Origin: a virus
Reading direction: 5' to 3' (one strand)
Length of the DNA: 23,564 nt
Virus record (IMG/VR): IMGVR_UViG_3300000101_000116
Location: 3,941-27,504 of that record
In this document: one piece after another, positions 680 to 22,671 of the stretch
Numbering within the stretch: position 1 is the stretch's first letter
Layout: each line of letters starts with the position of its first letter
Notes under the pieces: model-generated
Told to the model about the DNA's origin: nothing
The model's input: the letters and a program-made list of their open reading frames with translations, nothing else
Database searches by the model: none
Made by a program: the position numbers and the translations under genes

Positions 680-949
680 TTAAATGCTTAATTTTCTCCA
701 ATGGTTCATACCAATATGCCCATTCGCCAAACAGTAATCAACATATTCATAATGCTCATCGTCTGATCCTTTCTCATATACTTCTCCATTCGTTTGATCG
801 ACAGGGAGTTGCTTGTACGAATTGGCAAATTCATTTAATTTACGAACTTCGTTTTCAATGAGTGTGTCGGCTGCATTTAGCTCGACTAGTTTACTAATAC
901 GTTGACAACGGTTAATAAGTTTTGCGCGATTTTCTTCTTGATAAGTCAT
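680..949 (-). CDS. Hypothetical protein, 89 aa, acidic
   Basis: The ATG at 949 is preceded by GGAGG (ATGGAGGTCAGAAATG), a convincing Shine-Dalgarno site. The product is soluble-looking and acidic, with a helical N-terminal half rich in Glu, Arg and Asn (about residues 1-45) and a C-terminal stretch with several Tyr and His (DDEHYEYVDYCL). I see no membrane segment, signal peptide or catalytic motif and do not recognise the family. It is followed at once by a strong hairpin (646-671). No clear promoter lies directly upstream. It may be read from further up, through the tRNA-Arg region. Confidence 0.7.
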   Translation of the reverse strand: MTYQEENRAKLINRCQRISKLVELNAADTLIENEVRKLNEFANSYKQLPVDQTNGEVYEKGSDDEHYEYVDYCLANGHIGMNHWRKLSI

Positions 950-1084
950 TTCTGACCTCCATAATTTTTATTATATTTACGATATTTCAAAGGATTTTAG
1001 ACAGCTATTGTTTCCTCACGACTACAACCCTTACTTATTTTTCTACAAAGATTTTACTTCCTTTATAGTGAGTGATAAGCGGCC

Positions 1085-1180
1085 TCAATAAGGTGAAGAA
1101 AGAGGAGGTGGTTTGATTTCGCTCTCGATGACTTGAGGATCCTCATACGAAACCAACAAAGTTATTATAAAAATAAGCAC
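1085..1180 (-). CDS. Possible 31-aa hydrophobic peptide (GTG start)
   Basis: An open frame starts with GTG at 1180 behind a perfect AGGAGG placed four bases upstream, and ends at TGA (1085-1087). The peptide has a hydrophobic N-terminus (MLIFIITLLVSY), then an acidic and proline-rich tail (EIKPPPLSSPY). This looks like a single membrane anchor or export signal followed by a short exposed segment. Support comes only from the ribosome site and composition. It occupies most of an otherwise gene-free stretch between the tRNA-Arg (1254) and the 89-aa gene (949). The remaining bases there, 950-1084 and 1181-1253, show nothing else I can defend. Confidence 0.4.
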   Translation of the reverse strand: MLIFIITLLVSYEDPQVIESEIKPPPLSSPY

Positions 1181-1253
1181 ACAGCCTCCTAATTCAAATC
1201 TCACGAATTCATCTTCCAAGGTTCTCTTATGGAGATTACTAGTCGTAAGAAAG

Positions 1254-1339
1254 TGGTACGCCAGGTAGGATTCGAACCTACGATGGGTGTTACCCGTCGC
1301 CTTAGAAGGGCGATACCATATCCACTAGGTGACTGACGC
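1254..1339 (-). tRNA. tRNA-Arg(UCU) with long class II-type variable arm
   Basis: On the minus strand the cloverleaf is complete. The acceptor stem GCGTCAG pairs with CTGGCGT (two G-U pairs), the D-stem is ACC/GGT, the anticodon stem TCGCC/GGCGA holds loop CTTCTAA (anticodon TCT), and the T-arm is GTAGG-TTCGAAT-CCTAC. Discriminator A is followed by encoded CCA (1256-1254). The region between the anticodon and T stems is 15 bases and forms a GGGT/ACCC hairpin. Known arginine identity elements, A20 in the D-loop and C35, appear to be present. UCU reads AGA/AGG codons. Typical bacterial tRNA-Arg has a short variable loop, so the long arm is odd. Confidence 0.9.
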
Positions 1340-1348
1340 GTAAAAAAG

Positions 1349-1371
1349 GTGGTCTTTTGAAAGGAGACCAC
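1349..1371 (-). terminator. Rho-independent terminator just upstream of tRNA-Arg
   Basis: On the minus strand GTGGTCT and AGACCAC form a 7-bp stem with a nine-base loop, followed by CTTTTTT (1348-1342). It should end transcripts from the 88-aa gene. It lies nine bases before the tRNA-Arg 5' end, so tRNA transcription would depend on read-through or processing. Confidence 0.75.
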
Positions 1372-1374
1372 AGA

Positions 1375-1433
1375 ACCTTTTATCAGCCTTGGAGGTTCGA
1401 TAAAAACAGGCCGCCTTTTGATAGGTAGCGGCA
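1375..1433 (-). ncRNA. Structured 3' region with possible H-type pseudoknot and a GC hairpin
   Basis: Downstream of the 88-aa gene the minus strand holds TTTTATC and GATAAAA (7-bp stem), with AACC inside the loop and GGTT directly after the stem, the arrangement of an H-type pseudoknot. Before it is a GCCGC/GCGGC hairpin (about 1412-1433). With the terminator at 1349-1371 this makes three stacked structures in about 90 bases and no open frame. It may be a stable 3' UTR or a small RNA. Function is unknown. Confidence 0.35.
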
Positions 1434-1452
1434 AACCCTAACCAACGGAGTA

Positions 1453-1719
1453 TTAAAACAATCTAATGCTTACATCTCGAGACGAACTCGAGATAGTTCC
1501 AACTTGAGTGTTGGAGTTAAATGTGCGGTATTGTTGACGATCAATGTCCCACACGGTTTCATAGCCAGCTTTTAAGTTTCGTTCACGCAAGGTCATTGGG
1601 AAAACACCATCTGGTGCTTCTGAGATGCGAACAAAGTTCATTGTTCGTTCAAATCCGGTTTGCGTTACGAAAGTGCCGGTGTATACGGTCATAGTGTTTG
1701 TGTTGTTTGTATTTGTCAT
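1453..1719 (-). CDS. Hypothetical protein, 88 aa
   Basis: The ATG at 1719 follows a good AGGAGG site (CTAGGAGGAATTATG) and the gene has its own strong promoter at 1751-1779. The N-terminus is Asn/Thr-rich (MTNTNNTNTM) and may be disordered. From about residue 11 the sequence looks like a small beta-rich domain, with VYTGTFVTQTGFERTMNFVR, then MTLRERNLKAGYETVW. I do not recognise the family, and a small barrel-type fold is only an impression. The last codons (SSSSRD) are encoded by a perfect 8-bp inverted repeat (1474-1494), so the mRNA end is also folded. The strong promoter suggests early, abundant expression. Confidence 0.75.
   Translation of the reverse strand: MTNTNNTNTMTVYTGTFVTQTGFERTMNFVRISEAPDGVFPMTLRERNLKAGYETVWDIDRQQYRTFNSNTQVGTISSSSRDVSIRLF
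1474..1494 (-). repeat. Perfect 8-bp inverted repeat inside the 3' end of the 88-aa gene
   Basis: ATCTCGAG and CTCGAGAT flank a five-base loop within the last codons of the gene. There is no U-tract after it, so it is not a simple terminator. It may protect the mRNA 3' end together with the structures that follow. Confidence 0.55.
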
Positions 1720-1750
1720 AATTCCTCCTAGAATATTGTTTGACTATTAT

Positions 1751-1779
1751 AATATAACATAGTTTTGATACCTTGTCAA
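1751..1779 (-). promoter_or_regulatory. Sigma70-type promoter upstream of the 88-aa gene
   Basis: On the minus strand TTGACA (1779-1774), a 17-base spacer and TATATT (1756-1751), with ATGT directly before the -10 (extended -10). A TATAAT overlaps three bases further on. It lies between the 25-aa gene and the 88-aa gene. Confidence 0.8.
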
Positions 1780-1798
1780 GTATTTTTTTAAAGTTTTT

Positions 1799-1876
1799 CT
1801 ACTCTCTATCATCTATCCATCGCCAGAATAAAGTAAAGGCAAGGAAGAATAGGAAAGCTGTTATTATGAATTCCAT
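1799..1876 (-). CDS. Small membrane peptide, 25 aa
   Basis: An ATG at 1876 with a GAGGA Shine-Dalgarno site opens a 26-codon frame ending in TAG (1799-1801). The product begins with a hydrophobic segment (MEFIITAFLFFLAFTLFW, residues 1-18) and ends with a charged tail (RWIDDRE). This is the pattern of a single-span membrane micropeptide with its C-terminus in the cytoplasm or at the membrane face. A dedicated strong promoter (1904-1932) sits about 28 bases upstream and another promoter follows, so the transcription unit seems built around this peptide alone. Phages use such peptides in lysis control, superinfection exclusion or host takeover. Which one applies here is unknown. Confidence 0.65.
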   Translation of the reverse strand: MEFIITAFLFFLAFTLFWRWIDDRE

Positions 1877-1903
1877 TTTGTTTTCCTCATTTGTTATACT
1901 TAT

Positions 1904-1932
1904 AATATAACATGTTTAAGATGCCTTGTCAA
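1904..1932 (-). promoter_or_regulatory. Sigma70-type promoter for the 25-aa membrane peptide
   Basis: On the minus strand TTGACA (1932-1927), a 17-base spacer and TATATT (1909-1904), preceded by ATGT. The -35 hexamer overlaps the TGA stop of the upstream 164-aa gene (1929-1931). Confidence 0.8.
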
Positions 1933-2423
1933 GTAAAAAGGCAAACTTTTTTTATAAAAGATTCATTTTCCCTAATTGAGTCCATCTTTACGGTGAACCA
2001 ATCATCGTTTGTCTCGCCACCGTCTCTGACTCTCTCTGCCCACTCTATTTGAGTTGCGATGTATTGCTGTAATTCTTCCTTAGTATTAAACAAGTAGGTT
2101 GAGTAATCCATTCCATCCCTAATTGCCTTCTCATACTGAGGAAAGAGTTTGATTGCTGTCTGATAAACACGTCTGTAGTGTCTTGCATCTTGTAGGTGTG
2201 TCTCCTCATTAAACGAGACATAAACTCTAGGTGAGCCAAACTTTTCTTTTGTCTGTAGTACTGCTATGTTTGTTAGCGGCATTATCTCTGTTGTGTAAGG
2301 TCTGTGTCTTGGTCCTATCAATGCATAACCAATCCAGTTCGCAATCGTTCCTATTGTGTAGAAGTAGTCCTTGTGCTCTTCGCTTTGGCTACCCCACATG
2401 TTGTAATAAATTTGTTCAACCAT
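1929..2423 (-). CDS. Hypothetical protein, 164 aa
   Basis: The ATG at 2423 is preceded by GGAGG (TTGGAGGATAAATG) and overlaps the stop of the 56-aa gene, so translation is coupled. The N-terminal third is rich in aromatics (MVEQIYYNMWG; DYFYTIGTIANWIGYAL). The middle is strand-like (SPRVYVSFNEETH), and the C-terminal half looks helical and charged (KEELQQYIATQIEWAERV). There is no signal peptide, although one segment (TIANWIGYALIG, about residues 26-37) is mildly hydrophobic. I do not recognise the family. It is the last gene of the operon that begins at the polymerase, and its stop codon lies inside the -35 of the next promoter. Confidence 0.75.
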   Translation of the reverse strand: MVEQIYYNMWGSQSEEHKDYFYTIGTIANWIGYALIGPRHRPYTTEIMPLTNIAVLQTKEKFGSPRVYVSFNEETHLQDARHYRRVYQTAIKLFPQYEKAIRDGMDYSTYLFNTKEELQQYIATQIEWAERVRDGGETNDDWFTVKMDSIRENESFIKKVCLFT

Positions 2424-2586
2424 TTATCCTCCAATGATCTTCTTCCCATATTATCTTATCCAAATCTGTTGAGATTCTATCTCCAATCACAAACAACAGT
2501 AAAACTCCATTGTTTCTAATTCTGTGTACTTGTCCTTTTTGTTTTCTTTTCGGACAAAATATCAAGTCTGTAATCTTAAGTTTCAT
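2416..2586 (-). CDS. Hypothetical protein, 56 aa
   Basis: The frame opens at ATG 2586, 11 bases inside the 3' end of the coiled-coil gene, and closes with TGA at 2416-2418, eight bases inside the 164-aa gene. This exact fit between two genes supports it as real. A GGAGG lies about 12 bases upstream of the start. The protein starts MKLKITDLIFCPKRKQKG, is basic in the first half, has a hydrophobic strand (GVLLLFVIGDRI), and ends in an acidic and Trp-containing tail (WEEDHWRING). It could be a small beta-barrel-like domain, but I do not recognise it. Confidence 0.7.
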   Translation of the reverse strand: MKLKITDLIFCPKRKQKGQVHRIRNNGVLLLFVIGDRISTDLDKIIWEEDHWRING

Positions 2587-2797: not shown

Positions 2798-3607
2798 TTA
2801 AGCCTCCTGAATAAAGTGAGTGTAGTGTTTAGCGTAAAGATGACTCTCTTCAGAGGATCTCCAGATAGCAAACGATGTTTCTCTACCTTTAGAATTGTTT
2901 TCTCGAACAATCTGTTGACATTTCGGTATGACTGATTCATCACCATTCAAGTCTTCTTCCTCTATATTAATATAATAACACGTCTCAGTAATGTTGTCAA
3001 GTGAATAAAGCTTTTTTTCATCTTCAGCGTCAAATGATCCAAAAGATATCGTAGAAATTCTAGAAACTTCTTTTTTAGAGTGCAACCTGTTGAAGTCTGC
3101 AGGGATATGCTCACAATACATCAAATTTTGAAGTGTTGAGTAGATAAAGTAATTTACTTTCTCGTAGTAGTTGGTAACCGTTCCTGGGCCTGCGATATTT
3201 AACAATGTCTTGTTGTCCAGAATCATGACCTCATCAATCATACCTGATCGTGTATACTCTTGAATAACATTGAAGTGAACCCTGTGTCTCAGCCTTTCTT
3301 TCTTTGAGCAGAACTCGAGGTCAGGTACAATATAGCAAACAGTTGTTTTAAAGGGCTTCAGAGCCTCTAGGACGCGTAGTGTTGCTCCGGCAACCTTACC
3401 ACTACCACAAACAAACAGAATGGCTTCATCGTGAGATTTGAGCCCTCTCTGTTTAAGTTTAATTGGCTGTTCGTCGTATTCCTCAACAGTACTCTTCTTT
3501 TCGATACCGTCGTTTTCATCTAAAATAATTATTTTATAGTTACTGGTGTGTGGTTTGAATAATTTCGCAATGTTTTTACCTGCTTCCCCTAATCCTACTA
3601 AGATCAT
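2798..3607 (-). CDS. Divergent compact FtsZ/tubulin-like protein, 269 aa
   Basis: The start at 3607 has AGGAG upstream and overlaps the stop of the preceding frame (ATGA). Several landmarks line up in order with the FtsZ/tubulin GTPase fold. They are an N-terminal Rossmann-type VGLGEAGKNIAK (residues 4-15), an AILFVCGSGKVAGATLRVLE segment at 62-81 where FtsZ has its GGGTGTG loop, a CYIVPDLEF strand then a charged helix (91-118) like the FtsZ VVTxPFxFE region, LDNKTLL (130-136) like IPNDKLL, and HIPADFNRL where FtsZ has NVDFAD. The glycine loop and the second acidic residue of the catalytic loop are altered. If the fold is right it may polymerise and organise or segregate phage DNA. GTP use is doubtful. 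Other Rossmann folds cannot be excluded. Confidence 0.55.
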   Translation of the reverse strand: MILVGLGEAGKNIAKLFKPHTSNYKIIILDENDGIEKKSTVEEYDEQPIKLKQRGLKSHDEAILFVCGSGKVAGATLRVLEALKPFKTTVCYIVPDLEFCSKKERLRHRVHFNVIQEYTRSGMIDEVMILDNKTLLNIAGPGTVTNYYEKVNYFIYSTLQNLMYCEHIPADFNRLHSKKEVSRISTISFGSFDAEDEKKLYSLDNITETCYYINIEEEDLNGDESVIPKCQQIVRENNSKGRETSFAIWRSSEESHLYAKHYTHFIQEA

Positions 3608-3990
3608 TTTACTCTCCTGTTTGTTATATGTATAATATTGGTATTGTGACTATTTTTTCCGAGGCGAAGACAAAAACTTTTATCGATGGTAGACTGATGT
3701 CGTGAGGATATGGAAAGATTCCTAGAACCATCGCAAGGTCTCCGTTCTTGTATCCGAAGAGCGAGCGGTGGTCCCACGGGCTTTTTGAAATTGTAACAAG
3801 ATCTCCTACTTCCATTGAATACCTCAAGCTCAGTGTCCCACATTGGAACTTCTACACCGTCACTCATAAATACCCAATACAACTTAAATAATTGCCCAAC
3901 TTGTTCTATTTTGGTCACTATTCCAATCTCACCGTTGTTGTATCCTGTTGTTTGACACTCAGTGAGAACCACCAAGTCTCCGACTACCAT
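3604..3990 (-). CDS. Small beta-barrel (SH3/KOW-like) protein; 128-aa frame with doubtful C-terminal half
   Basis: The ATG at 3990 overlaps the end of the polymerase gene by seven bases. The first 57 residues form a plausible small beta-barrel domain, with MVVGDLVVLTE, GYNNGEIGIVTKI, FKLYWVFMSDGVEVPMW, a pattern common in KOW/SH3-type domains. After about residue 58 the frame continues for 70 residues of shadow-like composition (Ser, Arg, Cys, His), because the same DNA encodes a clear paralogue of the first domain in another frame (3624-3815). The frame ends in an ATGA overlap with the tubulin-like gene. It may have lost its original stop, or the long tail may be expressed. The function is unknown. 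Confidence 0.65.
   Translation of the reverse strand: MVVGDLVVLTECQTTGYNNGEIGIVTKIEQVGQLFKLYWVFMSDGVEVPMWDTELEVFNGSRRSCYNFKKPVGPPLALRIQERRPCDGSRNLSISSRHQSTIDKSFCLRLGKNSHNTNIIHITNRRVK
3624..3815 (-). CDS. Second small beta-barrel (SH3/KOW-like) protein, 63 aa, nested in another frame
   Basis: The ATG at 3815 has GAGG seven bases upstream. The protein aligns with the first domain of the preceding gene over its whole length: MEVGDLVTIS with MVVGDLVVLT, GYKNGDLAMVLGI with GYNNGEIGIVTKI, and IKVFVFASEKIVTIPI with FKLYWVFMSDGVEVPM. That makes it a tandem paralogue and shows this frame is the coding one here, although it lies entirely inside the +1-shifted extension of its neighbour. Its stop leaves room for the AGGAG of the tubulin-like gene. 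Such domains often bind nucleic acid or proteins, but no role can be assigned. Confidence 0.75.
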   Translation of the reverse strand: MEVGDLVTISKSPWDHRSLFGYKNGDLAMVLGIFPYPHDISLPSIKVFVFASEKIVTIPILYI

Positions 3991-5177
3991 GAAAACTTCT
4001 TTAGTTTACCCAAACTCTTGCCTATCGAACAGTTTACTTTGAACTTGCCCAATCGAGTGTCTCCGAACATCTCTTTTAATTCAGGAATCAGTCGTCTGTC
4101 GTCGGCATGAAGGTCAATGACAACGCTATCGTGAACAATCGCAGCAACATGGGATCGTGTTGCCCTAAGAAAACCAGAAATTTTGATAAATCGTTCGAGT
4201 GTGTTATCAGAGGAACTTGATTGTAGAAGGTAGTTGAGTGCTTTGCTAGGGGTAGTAGCAATTGACCGTCCAAAAGGGGTTCTGACCATTTCACTTTCGG
4301 AGTCATAATATCTTTCCAAGAGCACGTCTCTATCGTAATAATCGGATTTAATAATTCTGGACTCAGGGTTGTAGAGCCAAGCGAATATTTTTGTTTTTGC
4401 TTCGTCTCGGCTAAGATCTTGTCCAAAAACGTTTTTGATGTTCCACTCATGAATATCCTCCTCTGGTTGTTCATGTTCTTGCAATGCTAACATTGTTCTA
4501 ATCTCGGAAGCATTAAAATCAAGCTCCAAGAACACGTCATTCGTTGGGTAGACGTGATTTTTAAGTTCGCTCTTTAGATTTAAGATTGGAAAAGAGTCTT
4601 TCTTGGTCGTCAATCTTCCTGTGATCGTTCCGAACAAGTTGTAATCAATGTATGGAGTTGTTTCTCCAAATTGACTGTAGAGATGTTTGGCTTTCATATC
4701 ATCTGCTGCAGCACAATACAGTGCGAATGAGTTAAGTTTGATTGGGTGGTGCTTGAGTTCCTTTATGGCCGCCTGTGCGTTTTTTAATAAAGTGTAGTGT
4801 TCTGGTCTCTCGTGGTTGTCGAAAATCCATTTGGTGATTTCGTTCTTGGTATCAAAATAGTGAATCAAGTGCTTCTGAGGTACAACATCATAAAAACAAA
4901 CATCATTAAGATCAATCTTCGCAGTGATAAAACTCTTGAAGTGTGACTTCATCAGGTTACTAACTGAAGACCATCGTTCTCTTAAGAATTCTGGACATAC
5001 ATCATCAATCGACCTGCCCTGTACAAGCAAATTCGCATAATCGACATCCATGCCGAATAGATGGTCAGAGTAAGACCATGTTTTTGTTATCCCTTGTGGG
5101 ATTCTTTGCCAAACGAACTGACCGTCTAGGTAAGTTCCAGCACAATCTATTTTGTTGTCTAAAAGTTGAAAAAACAT
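3984..5177 (-). CDS. Short family A DNA polymerase (palm/fingers), 397 aa, no exonuclease domain
   Basis: Start chosen at ATG 5177 because it follows CGGAGG and lies downstream of a promoter. The upstream ATG at 5234 sits inside the -10 box. Family A signatures occur in order: TGRLTTKKDSFPILNL (186-201), motif A LELDFNASEIR with D220, motif B R257-X3-K261-X3-F265-X3-Y269, TPFGRS (300-305), NYLLQSSSSD (315-324), and motif C VHDSVV with H349-D350. The two catalytic aspartates (D220, D350) are present. The N-terminal 150 residues carry no recognisable 3'-5' exonuclease motifs, and there is no room for a complete one. T4 itself uses a family B polymerase. Split or exonuclease-less family A enzymes are known in some distant T4 relatives (from memory, Rhodothermus phage RM378). 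It heads the operon of small unknown genes. Confidence 0.88.
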   Translation of the reverse strand: MFFQLLDNKIDCAGTYLDGQFVWQRIPQGITKTWSYSDHLFGMDVDYANLLVQGRSIDDVCPEFLRERWSSVSNLMKSHFKSFITAKIDLNDVCFYDVVPQKHLIHYFDTKNEITKWIFDNHERPEHYTLLKNAQAAIKELKHHPIKLNSFALYCAAADDMKAKHLYSQFGETTPYIDYNLFGTITGRLTTKKDSFPILNLKSELKNHVYPTNDVFLELDFNASEIRTMLALQEHEQPEEDIHEWNIKNVFGQDLSRDEAKTKIFAWLYNPESRIIKSDYYDRDVLLERYYDSESEMVRTPFGRSIATTPSKALNYLLQSSSSDNTLERFIKISGFLRATRSHVAAIVHDSVVIDLHADDRRLIPELKEMFGDTRLGKFKVNCSIGKSLGKLKKFSW

Positions 5178-5224
5178 TTGCAGTGTCCTCCGAAATGTGT
5201 TATAATAAGTGTGACGGTTATAAT

Positions 5225-5253
5225 AAGATAACATATTTGAATGGACTTGTCAA
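5225..5253 (-). promoter_or_regulatory. Sigma70-type promoter for the polymerase operon
   Basis: On the minus strand TTGACA (5253-5248), a 17-base spacer and TATCTT (5230-5225), preceded by ATGT (extended -10). It lies just beyond the TGA stop of the last virion gene (5255-5257) and marks the junction between the structural and replication blocks. Confidence 0.75.
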
Positions 5254-16504: not shown

Positions 16505-19500
16505 TTAGAATTCTACGCCACTTTGAGTGATAACAAAGTCAACAGCGATAAACTCGATTGCACGGGCAGGCTTAACAAAAACCTTTGCGTACAAAATGTT
16601 TCGATCTTGAAGATCTGGGGTAGTGGTTGTTTCATCAAGAACAAGCTTGTATTCGGTAACACCAAACTCAGCTTTTACTCCTGATAATACAACGTCAGCT
16701 TGTGCCTTAAAGCGATTCCAAGTTGCTTGAACGTTTTGGTCAAACAAGATAGTATCAGCGATATCTCCAATTTCTTTCTTGAGATAGTTCATCAAGCGAC
16801 GAACATTGATTCGGTCAAGAGCAGAAGCTGATTGTTGAAGAGTTTTCTGTCCAAAAATCACGGTGTCACCTGTTGCAGGGAATCGTGCGATTGGATTGAT
16901 GTTTACTTCATATAAGCTATCACGATCAGCTTTAGTTAAGTGTTCGATTGTTCCTAGTATCGCAGGACCTCCAGATCCACCAAGAGGGTTTAATCCACCT
17001 CTTTGGAACCCAGCAGGTGCGAACCATGGCTGAGAGTCAGCTTCTGATTTTGCGATTGCTCCAAGGGCCGCTACTGATGGAGGAGTTACAATAACAGTTC
17101 CGTTTCCATTTAAAGTATCAGCCAATCGGACATTTGGATAGTAAGTCGCAGCGTAAGAGCTGTCCAATCCGGCAGCATTTATTTCAGCAACAACACCAGA
17201 GATGGTTTGAGGAGTATCGTTTGCGGTACCATTATCAACTGCTGGTGAATAAATACCTTCAACATCGATAATTGCTAATGCATCCCCACGAGCCTCAGTT
17301 TGTGAAATCAAGTCTTGATTTACTGAACGGTTTGTAACGCCCGGTATAGAGATCAAGTCATAACGAATAACGTCTCTATCGGCTACCATGTTAAGTGCAG
17401 ATTCCATTGAGTATTGAGCGTATCCGCTTGCATCCAACTCAACTTTGTTGAATGGGTTTTGCAATTTAATGTTAAGTCCGTCAAATCCACCGAAGAATGG
17501 TGCGACAAATTGCTTAACACCATCAGTGTCGATAAGAGTAGCAAGCGCTACGGGACTTGAGGCTGCTGCCTTAAAGTAGTATTTACCACCTGTTGTCTCG
17601 ATTTCGTCCAAAGTGAACGTGTACGATGCTTCAGTCAGTGCATCACCTTCTGCTAAATGTGGTTGAAAGAGGGAGTCTGCTCTTAATTGACCTAAGTCTC
17701 CGAAGTTCTCATCGCCTTTTTGAGCATCGTAAGAGAGTCCAAGTAGTGCAGTGGATCCATAGTTTCCATTTCTAACGTTAGTGTTTTGCTCTGAAAGTCC
17801 GTATTTCGGATAAGAAACAGTTACTGTATCGCCAACTTTGAGTTCGTCAATTAGATTAGTTGCACCGTTTGGTAAAGTATCCTTACCGAAGATCCAATCT
17901 TTAGATGCAAGACTACTGCCTTCTGGGATTTCAGCATCCCCAACATAAGTTCTTGGTCCAACGAATCCAACTGGAAAGTCAGCTCCGATTGTGGCTGTAG
18001 CTGTAGGCATTTCAACTCTGACTAAGTTAGAATTGTTAGTGTATGTACCAGTGGTAATAACTTTTTTGCCATTCCATTCTTGATTGATGTTTCCAATTTT
18101 CTTTTCGATATAATTCGCATCAGCAGGATTTAAAGTTAAGTTTACAAACTTTTCAATGTATTGAGAAGCTTTCATTCCAACACCAGCGATCTCCAAAGAG
18201 AATGTAGCATTTGGACTAAGAGCAGTACCGCGACGAATATCTTTGATTCTCACGACGTGATTCTTGTGAAAGTCTGAGCCTTCTTCTAAAGCTACCAATC
18301 TAAACAATTTCTTTTGAGCAGGCTTCGCACCGATAAACCAACCAGACTTTGCTGCTGTGGCTTCGGATTGCCAATCAGTGAATTCACCATTTGATCCAGA
18401 ACGAATCGCTGCTGTGAAAGCAATGAGGTCATTGCTAGCATCTAGTCTATTAACTGCATGTTCAAAGGTCTCGCCTAAGAAGTAGTTCAAAGTATTAGCA
18501 CCTGTTCCATCTGCGAATTCTGTAGCATCTGTGTTAAAAACATTTCTGATAAAGTTTGGTGATGCTGAGTCGAAGTTGAAAGTAAACTCATCTTCATTTG
18601 TACCATCGCCGATAAAAGCATTCCAGCCATTTGTTCCTTTAACAATAGCGGTTGCTCCATCTTTGGAGATGGCTGTTCCAAAACGTCCGTTACCAGATAA
18701 TGTGATGTTACTTGCACTCATGTAAAGAACTGCAGCAAGTGTTCCGCTCAATGCAGCTGTCGTTGGAAGACCGCCTGCAAATGTTATGGCTCCAGAGGCA
18801 ACTGTGAATAGATTCTCTCCAGATGCACTTACATAAGCGATTGTTCGAGTATTACCAGTAGGGCCGGAGACCGCTTGAGTTATCGTAAGTTCGTCTGTTG
18901 ACCCAACTTGAACGGCTTGGAAATCAGCGTGAAGAGCGACTACTGAGGCAATATGAGCAGCAGCGGCTTCTTTTGTTACAGAAGCTACGCTTATGTCTAA
19001 TTCGTCAACTCCGGGACTACTAGCGACCCATGTAAATTGCTGGGCGACGCCTGATGCATTTTGAATGTCGATGGTGTCTCCGACTGTGAGGTTCGCGCGA
19101 CCCAAATCTCTGACTTGTATCGTCACAGAAGCAGCTTGAGTAGCAGGGTTTGTGTTTTCTGCGACAAAGATACCAACGGCAGATTCAACTTCGGGTACGG
19201 TACCGATTGCACTTGTGATATCCTTCTGAGGGACACTCCAACCAGCTTCATAAGATGCACCTGATTCTTTAATTCCAGCTAAGCGAAGGAATTTAACAGG
19301 GCCAACTCCGGCAGCCAAATAGGCTTGAGCAGCATAGCCAGCATACGAAGGAGCACCAGTGTTTCCTTCTCGCCATGGATCTTGGCTCTTAACCCCATCC
19401 ATTGGTCTTCCAAAAACTTCGATAAAGTTTTCCAAACTGTTAACCTTGACAGGTTTCATTGAGGGCCCTTTTCTAGATCTACCGATGAGAAGCAATCCAT

Positions 19501-19585
19501 CTTCTTCAGGTACTAGGGTTACTTGTGATTGGTCGATCTCTCTCAGCTCAATTCCGGGAGACGCAAAGTCAAACTTGGTAGGCAT
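16505..19585 (-). CDS. 18: Tail sheath protein (gp18-like), 1026 aa
   Basis: The ATG at 19585 follows TTAGGAG. The N-terminus (FASPGIELREIDQS, then GLLLIGRSRKGP) and the C-terminal part (PWFAPAGFQRGGL; SALDRINVRRLMNYLKKEI; YAKVFVKPARAIEFIAVDFV) are typical of contractile tail sheath proteins, which form the contracting outer tube of the tail. T4 gp18 has 659 residues, so about 370 extra residues are inserted. The extra material is in the first two thirds and is Ala/Ser/Thr/Gly-rich and beta-like (for example GNTRTIAYVSASGENLFTVA), probably surface domains on the sheath. Position between the tail terminator and tube genes agrees with T4-type order. Confidence 0.93.
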   Translation of the reverse strand: MPTKFDFASPGIELREIDQSQVTLVPEEDGLLLIGRSRKGPSMKPVKVNSLENFIEVFGRPMDGVKSQDPWREGNTGAPSYAGYAAQAYLAAGVGPVKFLRLAGIKESGASYEAGWSVPQKDITSAIGTVPEVESAVGIFVAENTNPATQAASVTIQVRDLGRANLTVGDTIDIQNASGVAQQFTWVASSPGVDELDISVASVTKEAAAAHIASVVALHADFQAVQVGSTDELTITQAVSGPTGNTRTIAYVSASGENLFTVASGAITFAGGLPTTAALSGTLAAVLYMSASNITLSGNGRFGTAISKDGATAIVKGTNGWNAFIGDGTNEDEFTFNFDSASPNFIRNVFNTDATEFADGTGANTLNYFLGETFEHAVNRLDASNDLIAFTAAIRSGSNGEFTDWQSEATAAKSGWFIGAKPAQKKLFRLVALEEGSDFHKNHVVRIKDIRRGTALSPNATFSLEIAGVGMKASQYIEKFVNLTLNPADANYIEKKIGNINQEWNGKKVITTGTYTNNSNLVRVEMPTATATIGADFPVGFVGPRTYVGDAEIPEGSSLASKDWIFGKDTLPNGATNLIDELKVGDTVTVSYPKYGLSEQNTNVRNGNYGSTALLGLSYDAQKGDENFGDLGQLRADSLFQPHLAEGDALTEASYTFTLDEIETTGGKYYFKAAASSPVALATLIDTDGVKQFVAPFFGGFDGLNIKLQNPFNKVELDASGYAQYSMESALNMVADRDVIRYDLISIPGVTNRSVNQDLISQTEARGDALAIIDVEGIYSPAVDNGTANDTPQTISGVVAEINAAGLDSSYAATYYPNVRLADTLNGNGTVIVTPPSVAALGAIAKSEADSQPWFAPAGFQRGGLNPLGGSGGPAILGTIEHLTKADRDSLYEVNINPIARFPATGDTVIFGQKTLQQSASALDRINVRRLMNYLKKEIGDIADTILFDQNVQATWNRFKAQADVVLSGVKAEFGVTEYKLVLDETTTTPDLQDRNILYAKVFVKPARAIEFIAVDFVITQSGVEF

Positions 19586-22266: not shown

Positions 22267-22671
22267 TTACTTTTTAGTAGATTTCCTAGAGCGTCTGCGA
22301 GTTGTCTTTTTTACTTTAACTTCTTCAACAGCCTCTTTGGCTTCTTCCACTATATCAGCAGCAGTTTCCATTGCTTCTTCAACAGCTTCCTCAACAACCT
22401 TTGCTACCTTCTTAGCGGTCTTCTTAGTCTTTTGTGCGACTTCCTTGACCTCTTCAACGGCTTCTTCAATTGTCTCTTCAACTGTCTCTGCAACCTCTTC
22501 GATTGTTTCAACAACTTCTTCGATTGCTTCTGCGACTTCTGCCTTAATTCTTTCTTGTTCGTCAATGATATGACCAAGCCCTACACGACGAGCCTCTTGG
22601 GGATCTAACTCAATCCCCAAAAGACGGTGTTTTCGTAATAGAAGCTTTTTTCTTTTTGATCTACGACCCAT
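22267..22671 (-). CDS. Repetitive Glu/Val/Ala-rich helical protein with basic ends, 134 aa
   Basis: The ATG at 22671 lies ten bases after the stop of the 149-aa gene, behind GAGGTAAC. The first 25 residues are very basic (GRRSKRKKLLLRKHRLLG). Residues about 40-115 are a long low-complexity amphipathic helix of E-E-V/A-x-E repeats (EAIEEVVETIEEVAETVEET), with a short Lys block (KKTKKTAKKVAKV) in the middle. The last 20 are again Lys/Arg-rich (TTRRRSRKSTKK). The layout suggests a coiled coil or surface-binding helix with two nucleic-acid-binding ends. I know no named homologue. The position between the capsid-associated protein and the neck protein suggests a head-related role. Confidence 0.7.
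   Translation of the reverse strand: MGRRSKRKKLLLRKHRLLGIELDPQEARRVGLGHIIDEQERIKAEVAEAIEEVVETIEEVAETVEETIEEAVEEVKEVAQKTKKTAKKVAKVVEEAVEEAMETAADIVEEAKEAVEEVKVKKTTRRRSRKSTKK

Follow-up and report, generated by a model that had tools for sequence, protein, structure and literature searches.

A compact, probably hydrolysis-dead member of the tubulin/FtsZ superfamily encoded near the DNA polymerase of marine T4-type phages

Phages of a widespread marine T4-type lineage carry a much reduced tubulin fold, without the catalytic loop, as a fixed and polymerase-linked gene. We describe this compact protein from the window, by which we mean the whole 23,564-nucleotide stretch of phage DNA that was analysed. 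By fold and by descent it is a member of the tubulin/FtsZ superfamily, and it falls outside the named ones among its families (FtsZ, CetZ, TubZ and PhuZ), since it fails their signature, T7 and tail features. Descriptions of phage tubulins come chiefly from jumbo phages that form a nucleus and from plasmid-like phages, in which they are dynamic GTPase filaments. The compact family shows how far the tubulin fold can shrink and, as a natural and probably hydrolysis-dead tubulin, allows assembly to be studied without turnover.

A conserved phage gene missed by profile libraries

A sequence-only reading of the window had proposed a divergent FtsZ/tubulin-like gene of 269 residues at 2798-3607 on the minus strand, and the open reading frame is present exactly there (Table 1). 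Repeated IMG/VR scans recovered full-length relatives in more than 100 virus contigs; the family set comprises 135 distinct near-full-length proteins, whose identity to the window protein ranges from 89% down to about 21%. For the compact gene, dN is 0.03-0.21 against a dS of 0.43 to saturation, a clear excess of synonymous change that shows purifying selection on the protein. Together with the full-length homologues and a fold match of Z 20-24 over residues 1-269, this establishes 2798-3607 as the gene of a conserved phage protein and not a chance open reading frame.

Searches of Pfam, PHROGs, NCBIfam and PDB with phmmer and hmmsearch, whether with the single sequence or with profiles of 28 and 105 sequences, returned nothing above chance. 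The window protein has no match to Pfam Tubulin, and its best relative reaches E 0.0064, under the gathering cut-off. No relative was found by tblastn of three compact and two long members against 50,697 phage records, and none in 84,980 bacterial and archaeal genomes. Searches of an open-licence literature library turned up no paper that describes a protein of this kind. BFVD holds no close relative: the best viral match is a 452-residue ‘FtsZ’ from an uncultured phage (TM 0.73, 10% identity), and the closest named viral entry to the compact model is A0A6J5RW92, ‘FtsZ Cell division GTPase’ of an uncultured Caudovirales phage. Because the compact family was missed by every profile library tried, phage tubulins are under-counted.

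Table 1. Positions of the compact gene, its structural elements and its polymerase-side neighbours in the window.
Feature	Position	Strand	Basis
Compact tubulin/FtsZ-fold protein, 269 aa	2798..3607	-	ORF, ATG to TAA; AlphaFold2 model, Foldseek, structural alignment
T1 loop GLGEAGKN, residues 5-12, start of nucleotide-binding domain	3572..3595	-	G5/G7/G10 in 132-133/135
T4 glycine loop CGSGKVAGA, residues 67-75, with a changed tubulin signature	3383..3409	-	G68 invariant, K71 in 68/135
T5 loop VPDLEF, residues 94-99	3311..3328	-	P95 in 130/135, D/E96 in 128/135
Helix H5 motif HFNVIQEYTRSG, residues 111-122	3242..3277	-	Q116 in 135/135, R120 in 134/135, S121 in 133/135
T6 loop LDNKT, residues 130-134, with N132	3206..3220	-	Asn in 120/135; aligns with DNE of long phage tubulin
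Central helix H7, residues 149-167, with N152	3107..3163	-	DSSP of model; Asn in 122/135
T7/H8 position, residues 168-183	3059..3106	-	No column above 59% acidic; no helix in model
Second (C-terminal) domain, residues 184-267	2807..3058	-	DSSP; alignment with FtsZ/CetZ reaches the last residue
Compact (416 aa) family A DNA polymerase	3984..5234	-	Pfam DNA_pol_A 1.9e-7, PHROG DNA polymerase 1.1e-13
SH3/KOW-like small gene(s) that separate the polymerase from the tubulin-like gene	3604..3990	-	Clusters c10/c11, at most 12 loci; window's clade only

The predicted structure is a complete two-domain tubulin fold

AlphaFold2 run on an alignment of 105 sequences gave a model with pLDDT 95.2, pTM 0.92 and no residue below 70, which replaced a first model built on 28 close relatives (pLDDT 74, second domain mediocre). 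A Foldseek search of PDB with the model placed FtsZ and TubZ from the top rows on (FtsZ E 4.6e-11, probability 1.0). In VIA-align the best structural match was CetZ (Z 24.2, rmsd 2.8 A, 248 residues), with FtsZ at Z 22.4 (2r6r, 259 residues), TubZ at Z 22.3 (261-266 residues) and tubulins at Z of about 20; residues 1-269 were spanned and 725 of 725 aligned chains scored Z of at least 8. Matches of Z 20-24 over the whole chain indicate that both domains and the central helix H7 are present, and the three parts expected of a superfamily member, an N-terminal nucleotide domain, helix H7 and a second alpha-beta domain, are all there in one chain of the model. The compact protein is thus predicted, with near certainty, to have the complete two-domain tubulin/FtsZ fold.

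Prediction followed by a search of PDB folds was the check suggested by the sequence-only reading, which named as the opposing outcome a match to another Rossmann family without the second domain. That outcome was not seen: the model is confident, and the top matches (CetZ, FtsZ, TubZ and tubulin) are all tubulin-type and include the second domain. The top 50 structural matches contain no dehydrogenase, though this alone would not rule one out, and the sequence matches to dehydrogenases are partial and weak.

The five landmarks from which the protein had been recognised each occur, in order, at tubulin-fold positions of this model. GLGEAG (residues 5-10) lies between strand S1 and helix H1 as T1, GSGKVAG (68-74) between strand 61-67 and helix 71-82 as T4, VPDLEF (94-99) after strand 87-94 as T5, and LDNKTLL (130-136) at the end of strand 126-131 as T6; ADFNRL (170-175) takes the T7 position just past the long central helix.

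A sequence path to recognised tubulins

One related phage record (G002) also encodes a longer protein with a Pfam Tubulin domain over the cut-off (40 bits, E 4.9e-11). Profile-profile alignment of the compact family (A4) with this long phage tubulin gave E 1.5e-7 to 2.5e-7, runs from T1 to T7 and sets T1, T4, T6 and H7 in register. In a control with 40 targets, the top ranks went to two long phage tubulins (E 1.6e-7 and 8e-4); among the 38 E. coli proteins, several Rossmann enzymes included, no unrelated one did better than 0.024. E. coli FtsZ alone could not be told apart from unrelated proteins with hhalign. Among PDB sequences the long phage tubulin matches CetZ (1.5e-8) and TubZ (1.3e-6); for its divergent form, L312, the matches are CetZ (6e-10) and FtsZ (3e-5). 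The homology of the compact protein to recognised superfamily members is indirect, via the long phage tubulin; taken together, the two sets of matches add a sequence-based evolutionary path to the link given by the fold.

Each of the known families differs from the compact protein in size and loops or in setting. Archaeal CetZ (3zid, 4b45), with the closest fold and a T1 loop of the same GxGQAG type, is only 13% identical, has canonical T2, T3, T4 and T7 loops in about 340-390 residues, and is cellular rather than phage-encoded. TubZ of plasmids and phages (4ei7, 2xka) is likewise a mobile-element tubulin that aligns over most of the chain, but it is an active GTPase of 380-490 residues with a long C-terminal helix and tail, at 15% identity. 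FtsZ shares the order T1, T4, T5, T6, H7; compared with it, the compact protein is about 40 residues under the FtsZ core and lacks H8 and H9 (in the model), NxDxxD, the signature and the C-terminal peptide. PhuZ of nucleus-forming jumbo phages is also a phage-encoded tubulin fold, and our first model matched Goslar PhuZ in Foldseek. PhuZ carries the T4 signature and builds dynamic spindles in Chimalliviridae (PMC10299810, PMC12908238), whereas the compact protein has no signature, T7 or tail and comes from a T4-type myovirus, a setting evident in its tail genes, in the replication genes of relatives (SSB, UvsX and DnaB-like helicase) and in related genomes of 178-190 kb. The long phage tubulin, alike from T1 to T7, differs in passing the Pfam Tubulin cut-off, in having a T2 NTA and a T7 pattern, and in lying in the head-gene region away from the polymerase.

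Catalytic elements are missing and the base pocket looks kept

The compact size is explained by the missing T2-T3 part, helices H8 and H9 and C-terminal tail. In the secondary structure of the model the S2-S3 segment is short, so that the T2/T3 region is cut down, and helices are lacking between H7 and S7 (H8) and between S7 and S8 (H9). The chain ends after the last strand, with a median of 4 residues past Q267; the long C-terminal helix and tail with which PhuZ- and TubZ-type proteins assemble filaments are absent. The tubulin signature [SAG]GGTG[SA]G occurs in none of the 135 compact proteins, and the window protein reads GSGKVAG in its place. A search of residues 164-183 across the family for a conserved acidic column found none, the maximum being 59% acidic, and we therefore regard the T7 catalytic residues as not conserved. 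Canonical catalysis has very probably been lost.

The part of the pocket that faces the base has fared differently. N132 in T6 and N152 in H7 are presumably the positions that contact the guanine base in tubulin and FtsZ, an assignment made by profile alignment and DSSP and not by a superposed ligand. Both Asn are present in the window protein and in most relatives (Table 1), and judged from these residues the base pocket looks kept where the phosphate and hydrolysis loops are changed. The earlier statement that the GTP-binding and hydrolysis loops are altered thus holds for the phosphate and hydrolysis loops and not for the guanine-contacting Asn. Its suggestion of a non-hydrolysing protein agrees with the unconserved T7 acidic residues, and its alternative of a non-GTP protein finds no support in the window's clade, where these Asn are retained.

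The gene lies in the replication module of a T4-type phage

The T4-type setting and the polymerase neighbourhood noted in the sequence-only reading are both borne out. Tail genes in the window are T4-type (sheath, tube, gp53-like wedge and hub), related genomes are 178-190 kb, and the compact gene lies near PolA in the window and in related loci. Direct measurement of gene order covered 33 of 34 loci, all with the compact gene downstream of PolA on the same strand; the remaining locus (L292) was read from the other strand and has polymerase and SSB neighbours alike. Beyond the compact gene the relatives carry SSB, UvsX, a 5'-exonuclease and a DnaB-like helicase, and some a ribonucleotide reductase (exonuclease and reductase named from sequence). 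In several loci the polymerase stop and the tubulin-like start overlap or abut (TAATG, ATGA); elsewhere 0.2-2 kb of other genes separate them, the gap in the window being 376 bp.

The PolA beside the compact gene has 391-462 residues across relatives. It is the one family A polymerase and the sole recognisable polymerase of the large related records, in which no family B polymerase was found. The window polymerase is very small for the sole recognisable polymerase of 120-190 kb phages, has HDS and not HDE as motif C, and has no evident exonuclease domain. Between it and the compact gene lie two SH3/KOW-like genes, at 3604-3990 and 3624-3827 on the minus strand, which encode 62 and 69 residues in relatives and overlap out of frame in the window, where the first runs on to 128 residues and so exceeds its relatives.

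Sister phages carry a second, long tubulin

The long phage tubulin (L113, L312 and relatives; 377-402 residues) occurs in marine sister phages. At 1399-2535 (+) of L113, and also in G002, it is a canonical phage tubulin of about 378 residues, for which INPHARED holds no relative. Its sequences are 88-100% identical among the 80 contigs fetched, the T7 pattern FDxTD(Y/F)D is present in 68 of 70 distinct sequences, and the gene is sited in the head-gene region. A divergent form of 402 residues, with an AGGGGGTGSS loop and CetZ as its best PDB sequence match, is encoded at 937-2145 (-) of L312 and in G007; its gene immediately precedes that of a T4-like prohead protease, and G007 carries the compact gene as well.

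Ten records of at least 50 kb with an A6-type long tubulin were checked. In eight of them the compact gene is present too, at a distance of about 31-32 kb, and one of these eight (G023) has identical 98-bp ends and therefore closes at 178.6 kb. Both guanine-contacting Asn are lost in the compact proteins of the sub-clade with the A6-type long tubulin, to which 12 of the 13 compact sequences without both Asn belong. The pattern could point to a live/dead division of labour where the base pocket has been lost and a canonical long tubulin is present. Since the loss was probably one evolutionary event, the pattern is suggestive and not independent evidence. In G005, a 184 kb relative from the window's clade, the flanking head genes are present and the syntenic site, read directly, holds no tubulin; the ends of G005 do not overlap, and absence of the long gene rests on that site.

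Possible functions of the compact protein

We interpret the compact protein as a shortened superfamily member that retains both domains of the fold and the part of the pocket that contacts guanine, and that has lost the phosphate-sensing T2/T3 region, the T4 tubulin signature and the catalytic T7-H8 segment. A guanine nucleotide would then serve as a structural ligand that is not hydrolysed (with none in one sub-clade), and the protein, in place of a dynamic cytomotive filament, may form a stable oligomer or scaffold by which the replication machinery of the phage is held or positioned. A GTPase-dead tubulin scaffolding phage replication is our leading explanation, held tentatively at a little under even chances. 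Of its parts, nucleotide binding is slightly favoured on the residues retained; from residues and gene order, a role in replication is evenly balanced and self-assembly somewhat doubtful. The scaffold reading is weakened because gene neighbourhood bears on a replication role indirectly, because T2/T3 loss could abolish nucleotide binding altogether, because polymerisation is common in the superfamily and a static or non-canonical filament is possible, and because small genes lie between the polymerase and the tubulin-like gene in the window. The fullest version, a core hydrolysis-dead tubulin family of marine T4-type phages with a fixed guanine ligand, acting as a static replisome scaffold and encoded with the sole polymerase, is unlikely to hold in every part. 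If true, a tubulin would have turned into a replication factor. The compact family also makes it testable whether a tubulin-like scaffold organises replication in T4-type phages.

Instead of assembling, the protein could be a monomer in which the tubulin fold has been reused to bind GTP/dGTP and regulate the small PolA, as a polymerase accessory or nucleotide sensor. Such a role would suit the tight linkage to the PolA gene, whose stop codon can overlap the start of the compact gene, as well as the loss of assembly elements in the model. The family's most conserved segment is helix H5, with the motif FNxLQEYARSG, which suggests a protein contact (R183 is also conserved, in 135/135). In the window's clade, however, other genes intervene between polymerase and tubulin-like gene, and we judge this regulator rather unlikely.

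A cytomotive tubulin like PhuZ or TubZ, whose GTP-driven filaments centre or move phage DNA with catalysis by other residues, is distinctly improbable. Phage and plasmid tubulins do drive GTP-dependent filaments that centre or move DNA (PMC4244570, PMC12908238), and the compact protein has the same fold with the guanine Asn kept. Yet the signature and conserved T7 acidic residues are absent from all relatives, and H8 and the C-terminal tail are missing. These are needed for hydrolysis and dynamics in FtsZ, TubZ and PhuZ.

There is a slim chance that the protein blocks host cell division as a decoy, capping host FtsZ or co-assembling with it and so poisoning it: phage inhibitors of FtsZ are known (PMC3961180, PMC10714956), and a hydrolysis-dead FtsZ relative could cap filaments. 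An identity to FtsZ of only about 10-16% makes mimicry of the interface unlikely. The gene is also fixed in the replication module, and host-takeover genes are usually variable.

Equally slim is the prospect of a partner or regulator of the second, canonical tubulin (~378 residues), as in an unequal tubulin pair. Co-occurrence in most of the checked A6-type records, one of them closed, fits this, but relatives of the window lack the long gene at the syntenic site in G005, so partnership cannot be the general function and was rejected as such.

That the protein is an NAD(P)-binding Rossmann enzyme with a superficial likeness to tubulin has a negligible chance, as the weak Pfam and PDB sequence matches to saccharopine dehydrogenase and to the TrkA and KtrA N-terminal domains are partial and below cut-off, the whole two-domain model has only tubulins at the top, and the profile link leads to canonical tubulin.

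Other features of the window

The tail sheath at 16505-19585 (-) is unusually long, with 1026 residues of which only the last ~580 match known sheaths. A 134-residue low-complexity protein with Glu/Val/Ala/Lys-rich repeats (EEVVETIEEVAETVEE...KKTAKK) is encoded at 22267-22671 (-), and a tRNA-Arg (anticodon tct) lies at 1254-1339 (-), downstream of the replication-side small genes.
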